In this document: one piece after another, positions 11,163 to 17,846 of the stretch
Position numbering within the stretch: the first letter of the stretch is position 1
How the letters are laid out: every line of letters begins with the position of its first letter
Assembly: GCF_003288815.1 (NCBI RefSeq)
Contig: NZ_NHYM01000009.1
Coordinates: 1 to 64,000 of the forward strand
From: Helicobacter sp. 16-1353
Lineage (GTDB): Bacteria; Campylobacterota; Campylobacteria; Campylobacterales; Helicobacteraceae
DNA: 64,000 nt
Direction of reading: 5' to 3'
Made by a program: the position numbers and the translations under genes
Notes under the pieces: generated by a model
The model's input: only the letters and a program-made list of their open reading frames with translations
Database searches by the model: none
What the model was told of the DNA's origin: nothing

Positions 11163-13814
11163 ATGAAACAAACCTGCTCCCACTGCCATTTAGAATACGA
11201 CGAAGACGCACTTTATACTTGCGAGATTGGGGGCGTTGAACGCAGATTCTGCTGTAAGGGGTGTGAGGGGGTTTTCCGCCTTTTGGGGGAATATCAGCTA
11301 GATTCGTTTTATGATAGGCTTGGGACTTCCACGCTAAAGCCCCCAAAGGAGCTTAAAGATGATTTAAGCAAATTCGATTCGCTCCTATTTTTGGAACAAT
11401 ATCTAAACAAAATCGATGAAAACACCGCTGAAATCGCACTAATAATCGAGGGAATCCACTGCATCGCCTGTGTGTGGCTAAATCAAAAGATATTAGATAA
11501 CGCAAAAGGGATTTTGGCGACGGATATAAACTACACGAATAATAAGGCAAAAATCACCTTCAACCCGCAAGAAATCAAGGTAAGCGAGATAATCCGTCTT
11601 ATCCGCTCTATCGGCTACGATGCCAAAGCCTACGACCCAAAGACGCTCGAGGCGATAAATGCGAGGGAGCGGAGGGATTATTATACGCGAATGATTGTGG
11701 GCGTGTTTGCAACTATGAATATTATGTGGATTGCCGTGGCGCAGTATTTAGGCTACTTTCTTGGAATGGATAGGGACATAAAGGATATTTTGAATTTTGC
11801 TTCGTTTGTCCTAGCTACGCCGACTTTATTTTACTCTGGCTGGATATTTTTCCGCGGTGGCTACTATGGGCTTAAAAATGGCTTTATAAATATGGATTTG
11901 CTTGTCAGTATTGGGGCGTCGCTGACTTATTTTTACTCGATTTATGCCGCACTCACGCATGTTGGCGAGACTTATTTTGAGTCGGTTACTATGATAATCA
12001 CATTTATTTTGATTGGGAAATTCTTGGAGGTGCGCTCAAGGAAAAGTGCCGGAGATAGGATTGATAAGCTAATTAGCGAGATTCCAACGCAAATTAATAT
12101 TTTAAAAAATGGCAAAATCCTAGAGATTTCCCCACAAGAAGCCGAGATTGGCGATGTTGTGGCGTTGAAACCGGGTGAGAAAATAATACTTGATGGAATC
12201 TTGCTCTCCAAAAATGCACTCTTAGATTCATCAATGCTAACTGGCGAGAGTGTGTATGTGGAGAAAACTGCGGGCGAGGCGATAATATCTGGCAGTATCA
12301 ATATGGATTATCACATAAATTATAGGGTTACTAAGAAGTTTAGCGAATCCACGATGAGCCACATCATCACGCTAATCCAAGAATCTATCAACAAAAAGCC
12401 AAATATCCAAAATAAGGCAAATAGCATTTCGCATTATTTTAGTGGCTTTGTGTTTGTGGTCGCGGCTCTCACATTTGCGGTGTGGTGGTATGTGAGCGGG
12501 GTGGAGAGTGCGATTGTGGTGGCGGTGAGTGTCATAATCATCGCTTGTCCTTGTGCGCTCGCACTTGCTACGCCTATTGCCACGATTGCAGGCATCAGCG
12601 AGGCGTATAAGCATAAATTGCTTTTTAAAGAGGCTCGATTTTTAGAGACTTTCGCCAAAACAAATGCCATAATTTTTGACAAAACTGGGACGCTAACTTA
12701 TGGGAAGCCAAAGGTGGTAAATGTGCGGTGGTTTGGGGAATCTGGTGGCGGTTTAGATTCTCGTGAGCGTGTGGATTTGGCGGAATCTTGTGCGATTGTG
12801 AAATCTGGCGATTTTGCGGAATCTGCGGAATCTCGTGCACTTTTATATTCCCTTTTATATTCATTTGTAAACCTAAATAATCACCCAATTAGCAATGGCA
12901 TTAAGCAGTATTTGGAGAATCTAGATTCTGCCGAATCTAGCGTGGAATCTGTGGAATCCGCCACAGAATTCAAGGCGGAATCCAAGACGGAATCCAAGGC
13001 AGAATCTGCACTAGATTCCAAAGATTCCAGCATAGAATCCGCGGAATCTAAAACAGATTCCACCACAAATCGCCCACAAATCGCCCAAAAACTTCCACTA
13101 GAGGACTTCAAGCAAATTAGTCAAAAGGGGATTCAAGCAAATTATAAGGGGCAGATTCTACTTGGCGGAAGCTATAAATTTATGCGTGAAATGGGCGTAA
13201 AATGCAAGGAAACTAGCGATAATAATATGAGCTTTTACTTTGCGATTAATGGGGAAATTCGTGCGATTTTTAGCCTCGAAGATAGCTTGAAAGAAAACGC
13301 AAAAGAGGTCGTTAGAGCATTTTTAAGCTATGGATTTCGCGTGGTGTGCTTAAGTGGCGATAGGCACGAAGTGGTGGCAAAAATAGCGGAATCTGTAGGG
13401 ATTAGCGAGTATTATTTCGAGCAGACGCCACAAGATAAAAGCGAGTTTATCGACAAACTCCATGAAAAGGGCTTTGTGTGCGTTATGGTGGGCGATGGCA
13501 TAAATGACGCAATCGCCCTAAACAAGAGCGATATAGCCATTAGCATGGGGCAAGGAAGCGATGTGGCTATCGAATCTAGCGATATAGTTTTGCTTGATGA
13601 TAGCTTGGAGAGCCTTTTAAAGGCGTATCGGCTCTCAAAAACGACCTATGACGTGATAAAACAAAATATTAAAATTAGCATTATCTACAACCTGCTTACC
13701 ATTCCACTTGCCGCATTTGGCTTTATAATCCCGCTATTTGCGGCACTTAGCATGAGCTTTAGCTCACTTCTAGTTACGCTAAACTCGCTAAAAATTAAAG
13801 TGAAAAATGGGTAA
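11163..13814 (+). CDS. ccoI: CcoI/FixI-type copper-translocating P1B ATPase with inserted linkers
   Basis: Inner-membrane heavy-metal P-type ATPase; this subclass supplies copper for cbb3 cytochrome oxidase assembly. The N-terminal cysteine domain (CSHCH ... CCKGCEGVFRLL) followed by an HMA domain with GIHCIACVWLNQK is characteristic of CcoI rather than CopA. The intramembrane motif CPC is C462-P463-C464, the phosphorylated Asp is D506 in DKTGTLT, and the hinge motif is VGDGINDAIAL. The nucleotide domain contains NNHPIS, directly followed by a Glu-Ser/Asp-Ser linker (residues about 585-634). A smaller similar insert is at about 523-557. At 883 residues the protein is longer than usual for the family. 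G+C is higher than in upstream genes. Confidence 0.88.
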   Translation: MKQTCSHCHLEYDEDALYTCEIGGVERRFCCKGCEGVFRLLGEYQLDSFYDRLGTSTLKPPKELKDDLSKFDSLLFLEQYLNKIDENTAEIALIIEGIHCIACVWLNQKILDNAKGILATDINYTNNKAKITFNPQEIKVSEIIRLIRSIGYDAKAYDPKTLEAINARERRDYYTRMIVGVFATMNIMWIAVAQYLGYFLGMDRDIKDILNFASFVLATPTLFYSGWIFFRGGYYGLKNGFINMDLLVSIGASLTYFYSIYAALTHVGETYFESVTMIITFILIGKFLEVRSRKSAGDRIDKLISEIPTQINILKNGKILEISPQEAEIGDVVALKPGEKIILDGILLSKNALLDSSMLTGESVYVEKTAGEAIISGSINMDYHINYRVTKKFSESTMSHIITLIQESINKKPNIQNKANSISHYFSGFVFVVAALTFAVWWYVSGVESAIVVAVSVIIIACPCALALATPIATIAGISEAYKHKLLFKEARFLETFAKTNAIIFDKTGTLTYGKPKVVNVRWFGESGGGLDSRERVDLAESCAIVKSGDFAESAESRALLYSLLYSFVNLNNHPISNGIKQYLENLDSAESSVESVESATEFKAESKTESKAESALDSKDSSIESAESKTDSTTNRPQIAQKLPLEDFKQISQKGIQANYKGQILLGGSYKFMREMGVKCKETSDNNMSFYFAINGEIRAIFSLEDSLKENAKEVVRAFLSYGFRVVCLSGDRHEVVAKIAESVGISEYYFEQTPQDKSEFIDKLHEKGFVCVMVGDGINDAIALNKSDIAISMGQGSDVAIESSDIVLLDDSLESLLKAYRLSKTTYDVIKQNIKISIIYNLLTIPLAAFGFIIPLFAALSMSFSSLLVTLNSLKIKVKNG
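12733..13065 (+). repeat. GANTC arrays / Glu-Ser and Asp-Ser linkers 2a and 2b
   Basis: Two clusters lie inside the ATPase nucleotide domain. Five GANTC words fall between 12737 and 12832, and thirteen fall between 12917 and 13060. The words appear as GAATC (Glu-Ser) and GATTC (Asp-Ser) mixed together. For a sequence of this base composition about one GANTC per 300 bases would be expected. Conserved ATPase sequence resumes at LPLEDFKQISQKGI. Confidence 0.8.
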
Positions 13815-13836: not shown

Positions 13837-15262
13837 ATGCAAGAAAAAATAATTATTCCAGTGATGTTTTGCTTTGATAAAAATTATTGTGTGCCAGCAA
13901 GTGTGGCGTTCTACTCGCTATTAGAAAATACTGCAAAATGTGTTAGTGGCGATGTGGAGTTTTTAAAAAGGGCAAATTCGGCGATTTTAAGAGACTTTGG
14001 AGATTCTACGAATTCAACAAATCCTTTAGATTCCACCGGTGATTTTGTCGCAAATAGGGGGGGGGCAGCAAGGCTCTAAAAATACAGATTTAATAAATCT
14101 AGATTCTAAAGCAGAATCCAAAATCTTAGATTCCGCAGATTCCATAGAATCCAAAACCCTAAATTCCAAAGATTCCACAGATTCCAGCTCCAAAAATTCC
14201 GCCAACTCCATTAAATCTAAGAATCAAAATACGCCCAAAGTCCCACAAGCTCACCAACTACAAGAATCTAATGCCATAAAAAAATCTCAAATCCCCCTTT
14301 TCTACCACCTTTATATCTTGCATAATGACATTCCCGCGCATTACCAAGACTTGCTAAATCAAAGCATAGAGCCATTTAGGGATTTTGCTAAGCTTATTTT
14401 TATCAATTGTCAAGGGACTTTTGAAAAGCAGTGGCAGGAAATGCCCCAAAAAAGCCACTTTGCAAAGGAAGTGCTTTATAAAATCCTATTGCAAGGGCAT
14501 TTCGCCAAATATCATAAAATCATTATTAGCGATGTTGATGTGGTATTTTTGGGCGATATTTCGCAAAGTTTTTTGGACTTTGATATAGAGAGCGATGTCT
14601 ATATCAGCGGAGTTAGGGCAAATGACCCAAATGGCATTTTCCCACTTACTGGCTGGAAAGAGGGCTATAAGAAATTTAGCAAAGCCGAGTTTGAAGCCGT
14701 GAAATATGGCGTAGGCGGAGGCTACCTAATCGCAAATCTTAAAAAATGGCGGCACGATGATATAGAATCTAAGATGATAGAATACTTACGCCTAAACGCC
14801 CACAAGTTAGTCCTAGCCGAGCAAGATGTGCTAAATATCATCTGCTATCCTAAAATCGCCACGCTCTCCCCAGCCCACATCGTAGGACATCAAATGTGGG
14901 AGCGATATGGGGAGCGCTGGGAGAAATATCCGCCAAAAGTTTATAGCAAAAATGAGCTAGATTCTGCTAGGAGGCACCCCATACAGCTCCACTATATCGG
15001 GGATAAAAAGCCGTGGAACTACCCAAGTGAGCCAAAAAGTGAGCTTTGGTATAGCTATCTAGCAAAAACGCCATTTTTAAAAATTTTTCTAGCAAATATA
15101 GAATGCGTAATCATAAATAATTACATAAAAACAACTCTGCCCTATCGGCTTAAAGCCCTATTTAAGCGAAATAAGCTCTTTTTTATAGACCCTAGAATCT
15201 ACTTTAAAATTACAAAAAGAATTTTTAAAAAGATTTGGGGGAAGATTCAAGGGAGAGATTAG
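13837..15262 (+). CDS. Phase-variable GT8 glycosyltransferase, OFF in this read
   Basis: One glycosyltransferase family 8 gene split by a poly-G frameshift. The 5' part (13837-14079, stop TAA) encodes the first strand and helix of the fold (IIIPVMFCFDKNYCVPASVAFYSLLENT). The 3' part, in the next frame (readable from 14039 to 15262), encodes the rest: FYHLYILHND, the DxD motif in IIISDVDVVFLGD, GVGGGYLIANLKKW, EQDVLNII and HYIGDKKPWN. There are nine G at 14057-14065; eight (or eleven) would restore one frame of 474 codons. The product would modify a surface glycan such as LOS. The segment around and after the tract is a DS-rich linker with no counterpart in ordinary GT8 enzymes. Start site: AAGGACATAA before ATG. 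Confidence 0.85.
14000..14275 (+). repeat. GANTC array / Asp-Ser linker 3
   Basis: GATTC and GAATC words cluster on both sides of the G tract: two at 14000-14035 and about nine from 14101 to 14275. They encode NLDSKAESKILDSADSIESK and similar DS/ES dipeptides. Conserved GT8 sequence resumes at about 14297 (IPLFYHLYILHND). Confidence 0.8.
14057..14065 (+). repeat. Poly-G contingency tract (G9)
   Basis: Nine consecutive G lie inside the GT8 gene, followed by CAGCAAGG. At nine G the upstream frame ends at 14079. Removing one G gives the continuous reading N-R-G-G-Q-Q-G-S-K into the linker and the catalytic domain. Homopolymeric G tracts of this length mediate slipped-strand phase variation in Helicobacter and Campylobacter. 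Confidence 0.9.
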
Positions 15263-15280
15263 GAGAGATTAGGAGAGATT
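15251..15280 (+). repeat. Three tandem 10-base repeats at the GT8 stop codon
   Basis: GGGAGAGATT is followed by two exact copies of AGGAGAGATT. The TAG stop of the GT8 gene (15260-15262) spans the junction of copies one and two. The array marks the entry into the hairpin-rich spacer. Confidence 0.7.
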
Positions 15281-15825
15281 CTCCAAATAAGCTATTACAA
15301 GGGAAATTTAGGGAAATCTCATTGTAATAAGTGGATGATAATCTTAAGAATCTATAAAAATGGAAAATAAAATTCGTAAGAGACTTTGCCACTTAAGCAA
15401 AATAAAAATAGCGGTGATGGAACATTAAGATTAAAGGATTTTTTAAAAGTAGCGATGGGATTTGCAAATCTAAAGGCAATCTTTATCGTTTTTCTTTGAA
15501 ATTTTCACTTGGTTTTAAAAGCCACCCGTTAAAGGTGGGAGAGGCAAAACCTAGTTTCACCAGCAATAATGGAATTGCTAGTTTTTAATGGGCTTCGCCT
15601 CTTTACAGGAAACTTCGGCTAAAGCCTTATTTTACACGAAGCTACGAATTTCTAACGAAATTCAAGAGGCTAAGGTATTAACTTCGCAACCCTAGCTAAG
15701 CTAGTTTTTGCGATAAGGGAGTAAATCCCTTTTACAGGAATCTTCGCTTTACAGGGCTTTCAAGGCTAAAGCCTTTTGCAATGGCGGATATATTTTAAAA
15801 AATTAAATTACAAAAAGGACATAAA
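15263..15825. repeat. Second gene-free spacer dense in short hairpins
   Basis: No coding frame is supported in these 563 bases between the two glycosyltransferases. From about 15530 it is built of small inverted repeats: AGCAAT...ATTGCT near 15562, GGC-TTC-GCC near 15592, GGCTAAAGCC near 15619, GAATTTC-TAAC-GAAATTC near 15646, GGGA-GTAAA-TCCC near 15717 and AAGGC-TAAA-GCCTT near 15762. ACAGGAA(A/T)CTTCG occurs twice here and a matching copy is near 778 in the first spacer. The last 25 bases hold an AAAAAGGAC ribosome site for the next gene. Confidence 0.6.
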
Positions 15826-17021
15826 ATGCAAAATATAACTTTTCAAAATGGATATGAGTTTTTAAAACTTCACAATAGCTTTAAGGATACGAATAGCGTG
15901 GAATCTGCTTGCATATTTAGCACTGATTTGCCCCCTAAAAATCCGCTTTTTACCATCGCAATCCCAACTTATAAACGCCTTGACACGTTAAAAGAGACAA
16001 TAGAATCGGCATTAAATCAAGATATAGATAAGCTAAATGGGGGGGGCAGCAAGAGAGCAAGATATTAGAATCTAAATCAATAGAATCCAAAGAATCTAAA
16101 AAATCATATGAAATTATCGTGGTAGAAAATCCAAGTGTTAGCTCCCAAACGAGCGAATTTTTAGAATCTTACAGGGGTAAAATCACATATTATAAAAACG
16201 CCAAAAACCTAAATCTTTTTGGTAATTGGAATCGTTGTATTTCCCTAGCAAAAGGCAAGTGGGTTTGTATCTTGCATGATGATGATATTTTATTGCCAAA
16301 TTATCTAAGCGAGATGAAAAAAGCAGTAGAAAAAGTGGAGGAAAATACCGCTTTAATTTCGCATAGAGCGATATATTTTGGGAATCTAGATTTGATTAAT
16401 TATAGACAGGCGGAGGATTCTGGGATTAAAAAGCAACTTAAAAAATGTAAGAGCCTATTTTTAGCTCTAAAATCTATAAAATCATTTTGTATAAATCATA
16501 TAATTTTTCCTATTTTAGGCGTTAAGAAATATAAATTATTAGATAAGCGAAGTGCAGATTATATCGCTAAATATAATCCCCTGCATCCATCTGCAATGCT
16601 TCACAATAAGGAAGTTTTCCTAAAATTAGGCGGGTATAATCAAAGCTATTTTCCAAGCGATGATTGGTTTTGCCACATTCGTTGTGCGGAAAATGCGAGC
16701 GTGTATCAACTAGATAAATTCCTTAGTAAATATCGATATAGCATAAATCTAAGTTTTAACAAAGATACGATGTTTTATGGCTCTATTGTTAATTTTCTAC
16801 ACACACGAGATAATCTTAAGATAAATAAACGACTTAAAAATATCCTATTTCAAAAGCAATATGAAAATGTTTTAAAGATACAAGATGAGAATCTTAAAAA
16901 TGAGATTTTAAAGATTTTTGCGGATTTTGGCTTTAAGCAAATGGAGCTAAAAATTTTGGATAGATTCTTATATAGGATTTATAGAATGCACGATGTAGAA
17001 ATCTATAAGGTTGAAAAATAG
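15826..17021 (+). CDS. Phase-variable GT2 glycosyltransferase, OFF in this read
   Basis: One glycosyltransferase family 2 gene split by a poly-G tract. The 5' part (15826-16068) encodes the N-terminal strand and helix, FTIAIPTYKRLDTLKETIESALNQD. The 3' part continues one frame over with YEIIVVENPS, LFGNWNRCISLAKGKW, the metal-binding ILHDDDILLPNY and the acceptor-site region HPSAMLHNKEVFLKLGGYNQSYFPSDDWF, ending at 17021. Eight G are present at 16039-16046; nine (or six) would join the frames into a 398-residue enzyme. Between ALNQD and YEIIVV, normally adjacent in GT2 enzymes, the ON frame would insert GGGQQESKILESKSIESKES. The likely role is variable decoration of surface glycan, together with the GT8 gene. 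Confidence 0.85.
16039..16046 (+). repeat. Poly-G contingency tract (G8)
   Basis: Eight G are followed by CAGCAAG, the same junction as in the GT8 gene. In this read the frame closes at a TAG at 16066-16068. One extra G gives the open frame N-G-G-G-Q-Q-E-S-K. A GANTC-rich linker with three GAATC words follows at 16069-16110. Confidence 0.9.
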
Positions 17022-17167: not shown

Positions 17168-17820
17168 ATGAAAAAACTTTTATTAGTTTTTGGACTTTTA
17201 GTAGGTGGGTTGAGTGTAGCAAATACAGATGAGGAGAGTGGTGTTTTTGTTGGATTTGAGATAGGAGGCGGAGAATCTCAACTAACAGCAAAAGGCACAG
17301 ATTTAGCCGGGGTAGTATGGGACGATAAGCTAACGCAAAATAGCACTTCTTATGGTGGAAAAATCGGCTATAAATATTTTGTAAATTAGTGGTTTGGAGT
17401 GCGGGGATATGTAAATATCAACTACACGCAATCCAGTGCCGAGTATAGAGCCTCCGCAAGTAACACAAAACTAGAGTTAGAAAGCTTGATTTATGCTACA
17501 AATGCCGATGAACTTTTTAACTTTTATAATGTAGAATCTGCAAATATTTGTGCATTTGCAGATTTTGGATTTGGTGGAGCAAATGGAGAGTTTAAAAATT
17601 CCGGTTCTTTGCGATAAGTGGGAACTATACTATTGATGAAAATGCAAATGGATTCTATGCGGACTTAAAGCTTGGGCTTAGGGCAAATGTCGCCAAAAAT
17701 CACGAAGTGGAATTTATCATAAAAATCCCATTTGCTGATGCTAAGAAAACCATAAACGGCGTGGAAGCAAAGCTAAAGCAAAACTACTCAATTGCACTTG
17801 GATGTAATTTTACATTTTAG
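17168..17820 (+). pseudogene. Broken outer-membrane beta-barrel protein gene
   Basis: A signal peptide (MKKLLLVFGLLVGGLSVANT) is followed by beta-barrel-like sequence of the Helicobacter outer-membrane protein type (GVFVGFEIGGGESQ, YGGKIGYKYFV, GVRGYVNINYTQSS). A TAG at 17387-17389 interrupts the frame, and the same frame continues directly after it. A second lesion near 17600-17610 moves the sequence to another frame, which then reads FFAISGNYTIDENANGFYADLKLGLRAN and ends with the aromatic barrel terminus LGCNFTF at 17820. Both lesions would have to be repaired for a full barrel of about 217 residues. The short G run upstream (five G near 17120) is too short to be a clear switch. Confidence 0.75.
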
Positions 17821-17846
17821 ATTTGATAGGATTTGAATTAATATCC

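Follow-up and report, generated by a model that had tools for sequence, protein, structure and literature searches.

Two neighboring Helicobacter glycosyltransferase genes with poly-G tracts in the same loop, a recurrent CAGCAAG flank and linkers of apparently later origin

The window analyzed here is a stretch of 64,000 nt from Helicobacter sp. 16-1353 (genome G000) and contains two neighboring genes that encode a GT8-type and a GT2-type glycosyltransferase. Each is interrupted by a poly-G tract, G9 at 14057-14065 in GT8 and G8 at 16039-16046 in GT2, and each tract is followed directly by CAGCAAG, just where the initial annotation had placed them. The window holds no further run of seven or more G, and G5CAGCAAG was seen twice in it against 0.11 expected. 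The features of the two genes are as follows.

13837-14079, forward strand: GT8 upstream frame, an open 80-aa ORF from the ATG to the stop of the present OFF frame
13933-14056, forward strand: GT8 linker on the 5' side of the tract, absent in the orthologues of genera g2 and g9
14057-14065, forward strand: GT8 poly-G tract of 9 G; the frames 5' and 3' of it differ, so the gene is OFF at this length
14066-14072, forward strand: CAGCAAG, the 3' flank of the GT8 tract; CAGCA is enriched after tracts
14066-14299, forward strand: GT8 linker on the 3' side, D/E-S-rich and GAWTC-rich; the orthologous loop of tract-bearing relatives is 19-154 nt in total
14300-15262, forward strand: rest of GT8, strand 2 through the stop codon, including the motif DVDVVF (DxD); PF01501 at 4.1e-30, 105.6 bits against a cut-off of 24.3
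15826-16068, forward strand: GT2 upstream frame, an 80-aa ORF from the ATG to the OFF-frame stop, covering PF00535 profile positions 1-26
16039-16046, forward strand: GT2 poly-G tract of 8 G, OFF at this length
16047-16053, forward strand: CAGCAAG, the 3' flank of the GT2 tract
16047-16106, forward strand: GT2 linker, E-S-K-rich and GAWTC-rich; absent in the G081 orthologue, and the whole loop is just 40 nt in G089
16107-17021, forward strand: rest of GT2, strand 2 through the stop codon, including the motif HDDD; PF00535 at 5.8e-16, 59.3 bits against a cut-off of 23.3

At their assembled lengths both genes are OFF, with stops at 14079 in GT8 and at 16068 in GT2, although these tract lengths come from one assembly and may be off by a base. 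In the ON frames GT8 reads N-R-G-G-Q-Q-G-S-K and GT2 reads N-G-G-G-Q-Q-E-S-K, each followed by D/E-S-rich sequence, which bears out the common pattern G-G-Q-Q-x-S-K originally read for the pair. Both tracts are at least 8 G long, lie within the ORF and set its frame, and the length of the GT8 tract differs between genomes (9 to 12 G among the poly-G orthologues), which supports the proposal that the genes are phase-variable. Directly after GT2, at 17168-17830, lies a small outer-membrane-like ORF that a frame change and an in-frame stop have apparently broken.

The family names given to the two genes were upheld, since the PF01501 score of the downstream piece of GT8 and the PF00535 score of GT2 both exceed the curated cut-offs. 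The upstream piece of GT8, whose strand 1 and helix 1 reach to about 13932, gave a weak PF01501 match limited to profile positions 2-28 and a 97% match in a search of its own genome; helix 1 of GT2 ends near 16023. In each gene the break separates helix 1 from strand 2, the same topological loop, as had been claimed. The two had also been called unrelated folds, a view contradicted by models of in-frame orthologues, both of which match GT-A enzymes. The G016 orthologue of GT8 resembled WbbM and LgtC, consistent with the DxD motif of GT8 itself, and the G081 orthologue of GT2 (mean pLDDT 73.6) resembled TarP and TarS. Foldseek comparisons with GT-A structures returned strong E-values and high RMSDs (5-9 Å). 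According to these models, GT8 and GT2 are of the same fold class, GT-A. LgtC (1g9r) and WbbM (6u4b) share both fold and family with GT8 at about 16-19% identity, and the teichoic-acid enzymes TarP and TarS, likewise GT-A, are the closest solved folds of the modeled GT2 orthologue at about 16% identity. To our knowledge, neither LgtC nor WbbM has a homopolymer-encoded insert in the helix 1-strand 2 loop. In the G016 model, about half of residues 37-68 fall below a pLDDT of 50 (residues 39-46 and 52-60). This low confidence suggests that the loop of the GT8 tract is flexible and probably exposed, in line with the idea that slippage-encoded residues are tolerated there.

Orthologues were searched in 119 genomes of the family using the two proteins as queries, with their pieces joined by X. 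For both proteins we found orthologues with frames broken at the same place, as well as in-frame ones (GT8 in G016, GT2 in G081). A protein search of a contig collection with GT2 as the query returned no relatives. The insertion that contains the GT8 tract measures 367 nt and has linker both 5' and 3' of the tract, and the GT2 insertion amounts to 83 nt in all. In tract-free GT8 homologues, helix 1 and strand 2 are 12-69 nt apart, mostly 12 or 27. This gap is 19-40 nt in the tract-bearing GT8 of g2 and g9, where the tract nearly abuts strand 2, and it measures 70 nt in G004, 111 in G016, 154 in G068 and 367 in G000. GT8 genes of g1, g2, g9, g11 and g13 have a homopolymer in this loop; its flanks vary, and most of these genes lack the linker. 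Most of these homopolymers are poly-G and some are poly-C, the latter on the coding strand of three g9 orthologues (L302, L307 and L308) where other genera have poly-G. In a tree that used the sequence between the start of strand 2 and the C terminus and thus left out the loop, all tract-bearing members formed one clade, with at least three changes between the states G, C and none; some deep branches are weakly supported. The tract is thus old and the linker later. Judged by this tree and the shared loop, the ancestor of a clade of at least five genera already had the GT8 tract, which was inherited and not freshly inserted. The clade has kept a frame switch in one loop across genera while exchanging poly-G for poly-C in part of one genus, so the permissiveness of the loop may matter more than the residues encoded there. 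A divergent GT8 gene in G001 (L256, G001:C10:42351) has a tract followed by CAGCAAGG in this loop; its reading frame is a different one, giving Gly-Ser-Lys, and it lacks a D/E-S linker.

In the GT2 orthologues of G068, G081 and G089 the same loop carries a tract, which has other flanks and no E/S linker; in the G004 orthologue the tract follows strand 2 and occupies the next loop. The GT8-GT2 neighborhood is kept in G004 and G068. Across the genus, the tracts of GT2 genes are found at several sites: ahead of strand 1, in the loop that joins helix 1 to strand 2 (two genes), behind strand 2, and near 78-80 and 101-110 of a locally built profile. Counted along the domain, the positions are the N terminus, 22, 36-50, 78-80 and 101-110, with CAGCA at several of them.

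The linkers had been described as GANTC-rich, which holds for GAWTC and fails for GACTC and GAGTC, both of which are avoided. Counting as linker at least three GAATC/GATTC within the 100 nt after a tract, we found one at 18 of the 65 coding tracts of G000 (28%) compared with 4.2% of control coding positions, at five of its eight CAGCA tracts, and at none of 53 tracts in G004. The excess in G000 is mostly 3' of the tract (1.63 versus 0.86 GAWTC per 100 nt, Wilcoxon p = 0.02). In five further orthologous pairs the partner outside G000 keeps the tract and lacks the linker: the GT2-like T052/T076, T029/T143 (a large membrane protein), T055/T117, T007/T135 and T008/T104. The linker is, on these comparisons, best described as a later, lineage-specific addition beside existing tracts. 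Its growth can serve as a natural experiment on the spread of disordered segments into enzymes at sites where a frame-switch sequence is already tolerated. Four of the five strong D/E-S segments in the window have no tract nearby (one site is counted on both strands and so makes up two of the five), which suggests that linkers settle at permissive places generally and that tract loops are one class of these. Among such places, the P-type ATPase gene at 11163-13814 carries a D/E-S-rich insertion near 12924 without a poly-G tract, and two further tract-free D/E-S-rich segments lie in long ORFs near 1780 and 26557. A D/E-S-rich stretch also follows a CAGCAGCAA tract at L331 in a g11 genome, so the linker habit is not unique to G000.

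To describe the sequence after the tracts, we took stretches around tracts in five genomes of the genus, which gave 224 tracts of at least 8 G. The next bases were CAG in 47 cases and CAGCA in 27, whereas CAGCA followed only 2 of 5,453 short runs of 3 to 5 G in the same DNA, an excess of about 300-fold (binomial p about 1e-58). Across 60 genomes of the family, G8CAGCA occurred 78 times, mainly in g1, g11 and g13, and the reversed pattern once; a class-wide sample beyond the family gave a few single matches only. Of 73 unrelated phase-variable families, 16 have CAGCA, and orthologues with a tract at the same site frequently carry different flanks, which implies that the flank recurs and is not merely inherited. 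Beyond GT2 and GT8, tracts with CAGCA are present in methyltransferases of class I and of FkbM type, in GT10, GT11 and GT61, in a DUF2972 protein and in others. The longer G7CAGCAAG is present four times in this genome, including in two FkbM-type methyltransferase genes, and also in other gene families of the genus. A module specific to glycosyltransferases was rejected on these grounds, the flank being shared with methyltransferases and others and standing without linker in many genes that are not glycosyltransferases. In G000, two near-identical FkbM-type methyltransferase genes lie in tandem at a contig end (G000:C32:78966 and 80438), and both carry G9CAGCAAG.

The flank is not read in one way. 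CAGCA encodes Gln-Gln in 21 of 26 cases in g1, and Ala-Ala in 14, Gln in 11 and Ser in 2 in g11 and g13, whose stretches were picked for CAGCA so that their frame counts are informative and their flank counts are not. When glutamine directly follows the tract, its codon was CAG 31 times and CAA 0 times, whereas the same genes overall use CAA seven times more often (805 versus 111). Protein-level selection for glutamine is thus insufficient as the only explanation, given this 31:0 ratio and the Gly-Ala-Ala reading of the same DNA in other genera. TAG or TAA directly after the tract was seen 18 times when another frame is ON, giving an immediate stop of OFF translation, and 0 times in the ON frame, an absence that holds by definition; a flank chosen for a quick OFF stop would suit TAG/TAA and not CAG. 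The shared sequence does not reach beyond about 10 nt. From these counts, CAGCAAG is one form of a family-wide preference for Y-A-G, often CAGCA, right after coding poly-G, and not part of a glycosyltransferase cassette. As far as the literature could be searched, we found no description of a flank motif after poly-G tracts. If the flank rule is real, the tracts are more than bare homopolymers, which would change the search for them, the prediction of their switching rates and the view of how they arise.

Taking these results together, we consider it probable, at roughly 0.78, that the locus comprises two neighboring surface-glycan glycosyltransferase genes under slipped-strand poly-G switching, with an old tract, a family-wide flank preference and a later linker. 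In living cells, slipped-strand mispairing of the poly-G would switch each enzyme between its full-length form and one that stops early, with out-of-frame lengths giving a short truncated peptide. The tract sits in the helix 1-strand 2 loop of the GT-A fold, which seems to tolerate Gly/Pro runs and inserts of very varied length, and because of this permissive setting in-frame lengths should yield active enzyme. The substrates would be surface glycans, as suggested by the families and by the abundance of glycosyltransferases and methyltransferases in a census of phase-variable genes. The Ser/Asp/Glu-rich linker was most likely added later in this lineage beside tracts already in permissive loops, and such permissiveness could be the reason why linkers gather there. 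This last idea predicts linkers on both sides and leaves the 3'-side excess in G000 unexplained. That both genes are OFF in the single assembly could also mean decay, yet their flanking open frames are intact and orthologues are in frame.

The initial annotation had favored a portable module, in which tract, CAGCAAG and linker move as one cassette into glycosyltransferase loops. The junction and loop common to GT8 and GT2 would fit such a cassette, as would the divergent G001 GT8 with a tract and CAGCAAGG in that loop and the association of G000 linkers with tracts (5/8 in the CAGCA class). We nevertheless regard it as very unlikely, because the three parts are not present and absent together in homologues: the tract stands without the linker in GT8 of g2 and g9, in GT2 of G081 and in the five further pairs. 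Nor is there one fold position across several glycosyltransferase families, since the tract of the G004 GT2 orthologue and those at four other places in the GT2 genes of the genus lie elsewhere, and CAGCA occurs at other positions in methyltransferases, GT61, GT10, GT11 and DUF2972 proteins. Such homologues and positions are largely what the initial annotation had itself named as counter-evidence. The inheritance of the GT8 tract within one clade and the end of the likeness within about 10 nt also argue against it. Short gene conversion between the adjacent genes, copying tract and CAGCAAG, is only slightly less improbable; it would account for the shared junctions, and the genes are adjacent here, in G004 and in G068, but the flanks of the pair differ in G004 (TAAAATC and AAGTAAA) and in G068 (CAGAATC and CAATCAC), and the same flank is found in unlinked genes. 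Least probable of all is chance combined with base composition, that is, a short shared flank and biased GAATC/GATTC usage. CAGCAAG is indeed just 7 nt and GAWTC is common genome-wide (1.7-1.9 times the Markov expectation), but this reading is rejected by the CAGCA excess given above and by the excess of linkers over matched control positions in the same genome.

A stronger competitor, though still rather unlikely in our estimation, is that poly-G and YAG/CAGCA together form a functional DNA unit whose flank sets the slippage rate or is read by a factor. Candidate factors would be a methyltransferase acting at GCAGC or a RepG-like antisense RNA (an sRNA with TGCTGCCCC in its loop) pairing with G repeat and flank; RepG of H. 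pylori is known to target G-repeats (PMC8295292). The flank is frame-flexible, defies codon usage and recurs in 16 families and in g1, g11 and g13, and GCAGC is otherwise avoided in the G000 stretches (160 versus 398 expected, 0.40). Against this, CAG follows just about a fifth of tracts, other flanks are frequent at same-site orthologues, and g11 and g13, in which CAGCA is frequent, avoid GCAGC only weakly. Extended to the whole of Helicobacteraceae, the proposal becomes that G8-G12 with an immediate YAG, often CAGCA, is a composite DNA element under DNA-level selection across genes, frames and genera, altering slippage or being recognized in trans, and that in one lineage disordered Ser/Asp/Glu linkers grow preferentially 3' of it. 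We offer this extended form tentatively, as a possibility well short of an even chance.

Poly-G switching of this kind has parallels in related bacteria. The part of the PhasomeIt study of Campylobacter available to us (PMC6321876) gives 5-81 phase-variable genes per strain with a peak at 9 G (53%) and 10 G (26%), and it resembles our data in its intragenic poly-G, its frame-shift ON/OFF switching and its surface-modification genes; here, 133 and 55 of the 224 tracts have 9 and 10 G. The phasome of G000 is very large by comparison, with at least 102 tracts of seven or more G (filtered pattern) against those 5-81 genes per strain; G004 has 81 such tracts and G001 has 61. That part of the study reports neither a 3' flank rule nor a linker that we could find. 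For Helicobacter canadensis, the accessible part of PMC2823697 describes poly-G tracts in all translationally variable genes and 29 tract-associated coding regions, and is similar in having a glycosyltransferase among the targets and both within-gene and promoter tracts; we found no flank motif or loop position in that part.

Further word biases were evident in the G000 stretches. GGATG/CATCC is strongly avoided (60 versus 378 expected), GACTC stands at 44 versus 152, and GAATC is over-represented 1.7-fold. The word biases of G000 are possible marks of restriction-modification systems. Lastly, tracts of the form AAGCTT-nn-TTTAAT-G9-TAGAAT/TATAAT, which look like promoter spacers beside a -10 box, are kept across the genus, with sites at G000:C27:21054, G004:C2:322406, G001:C7:66349 and others.
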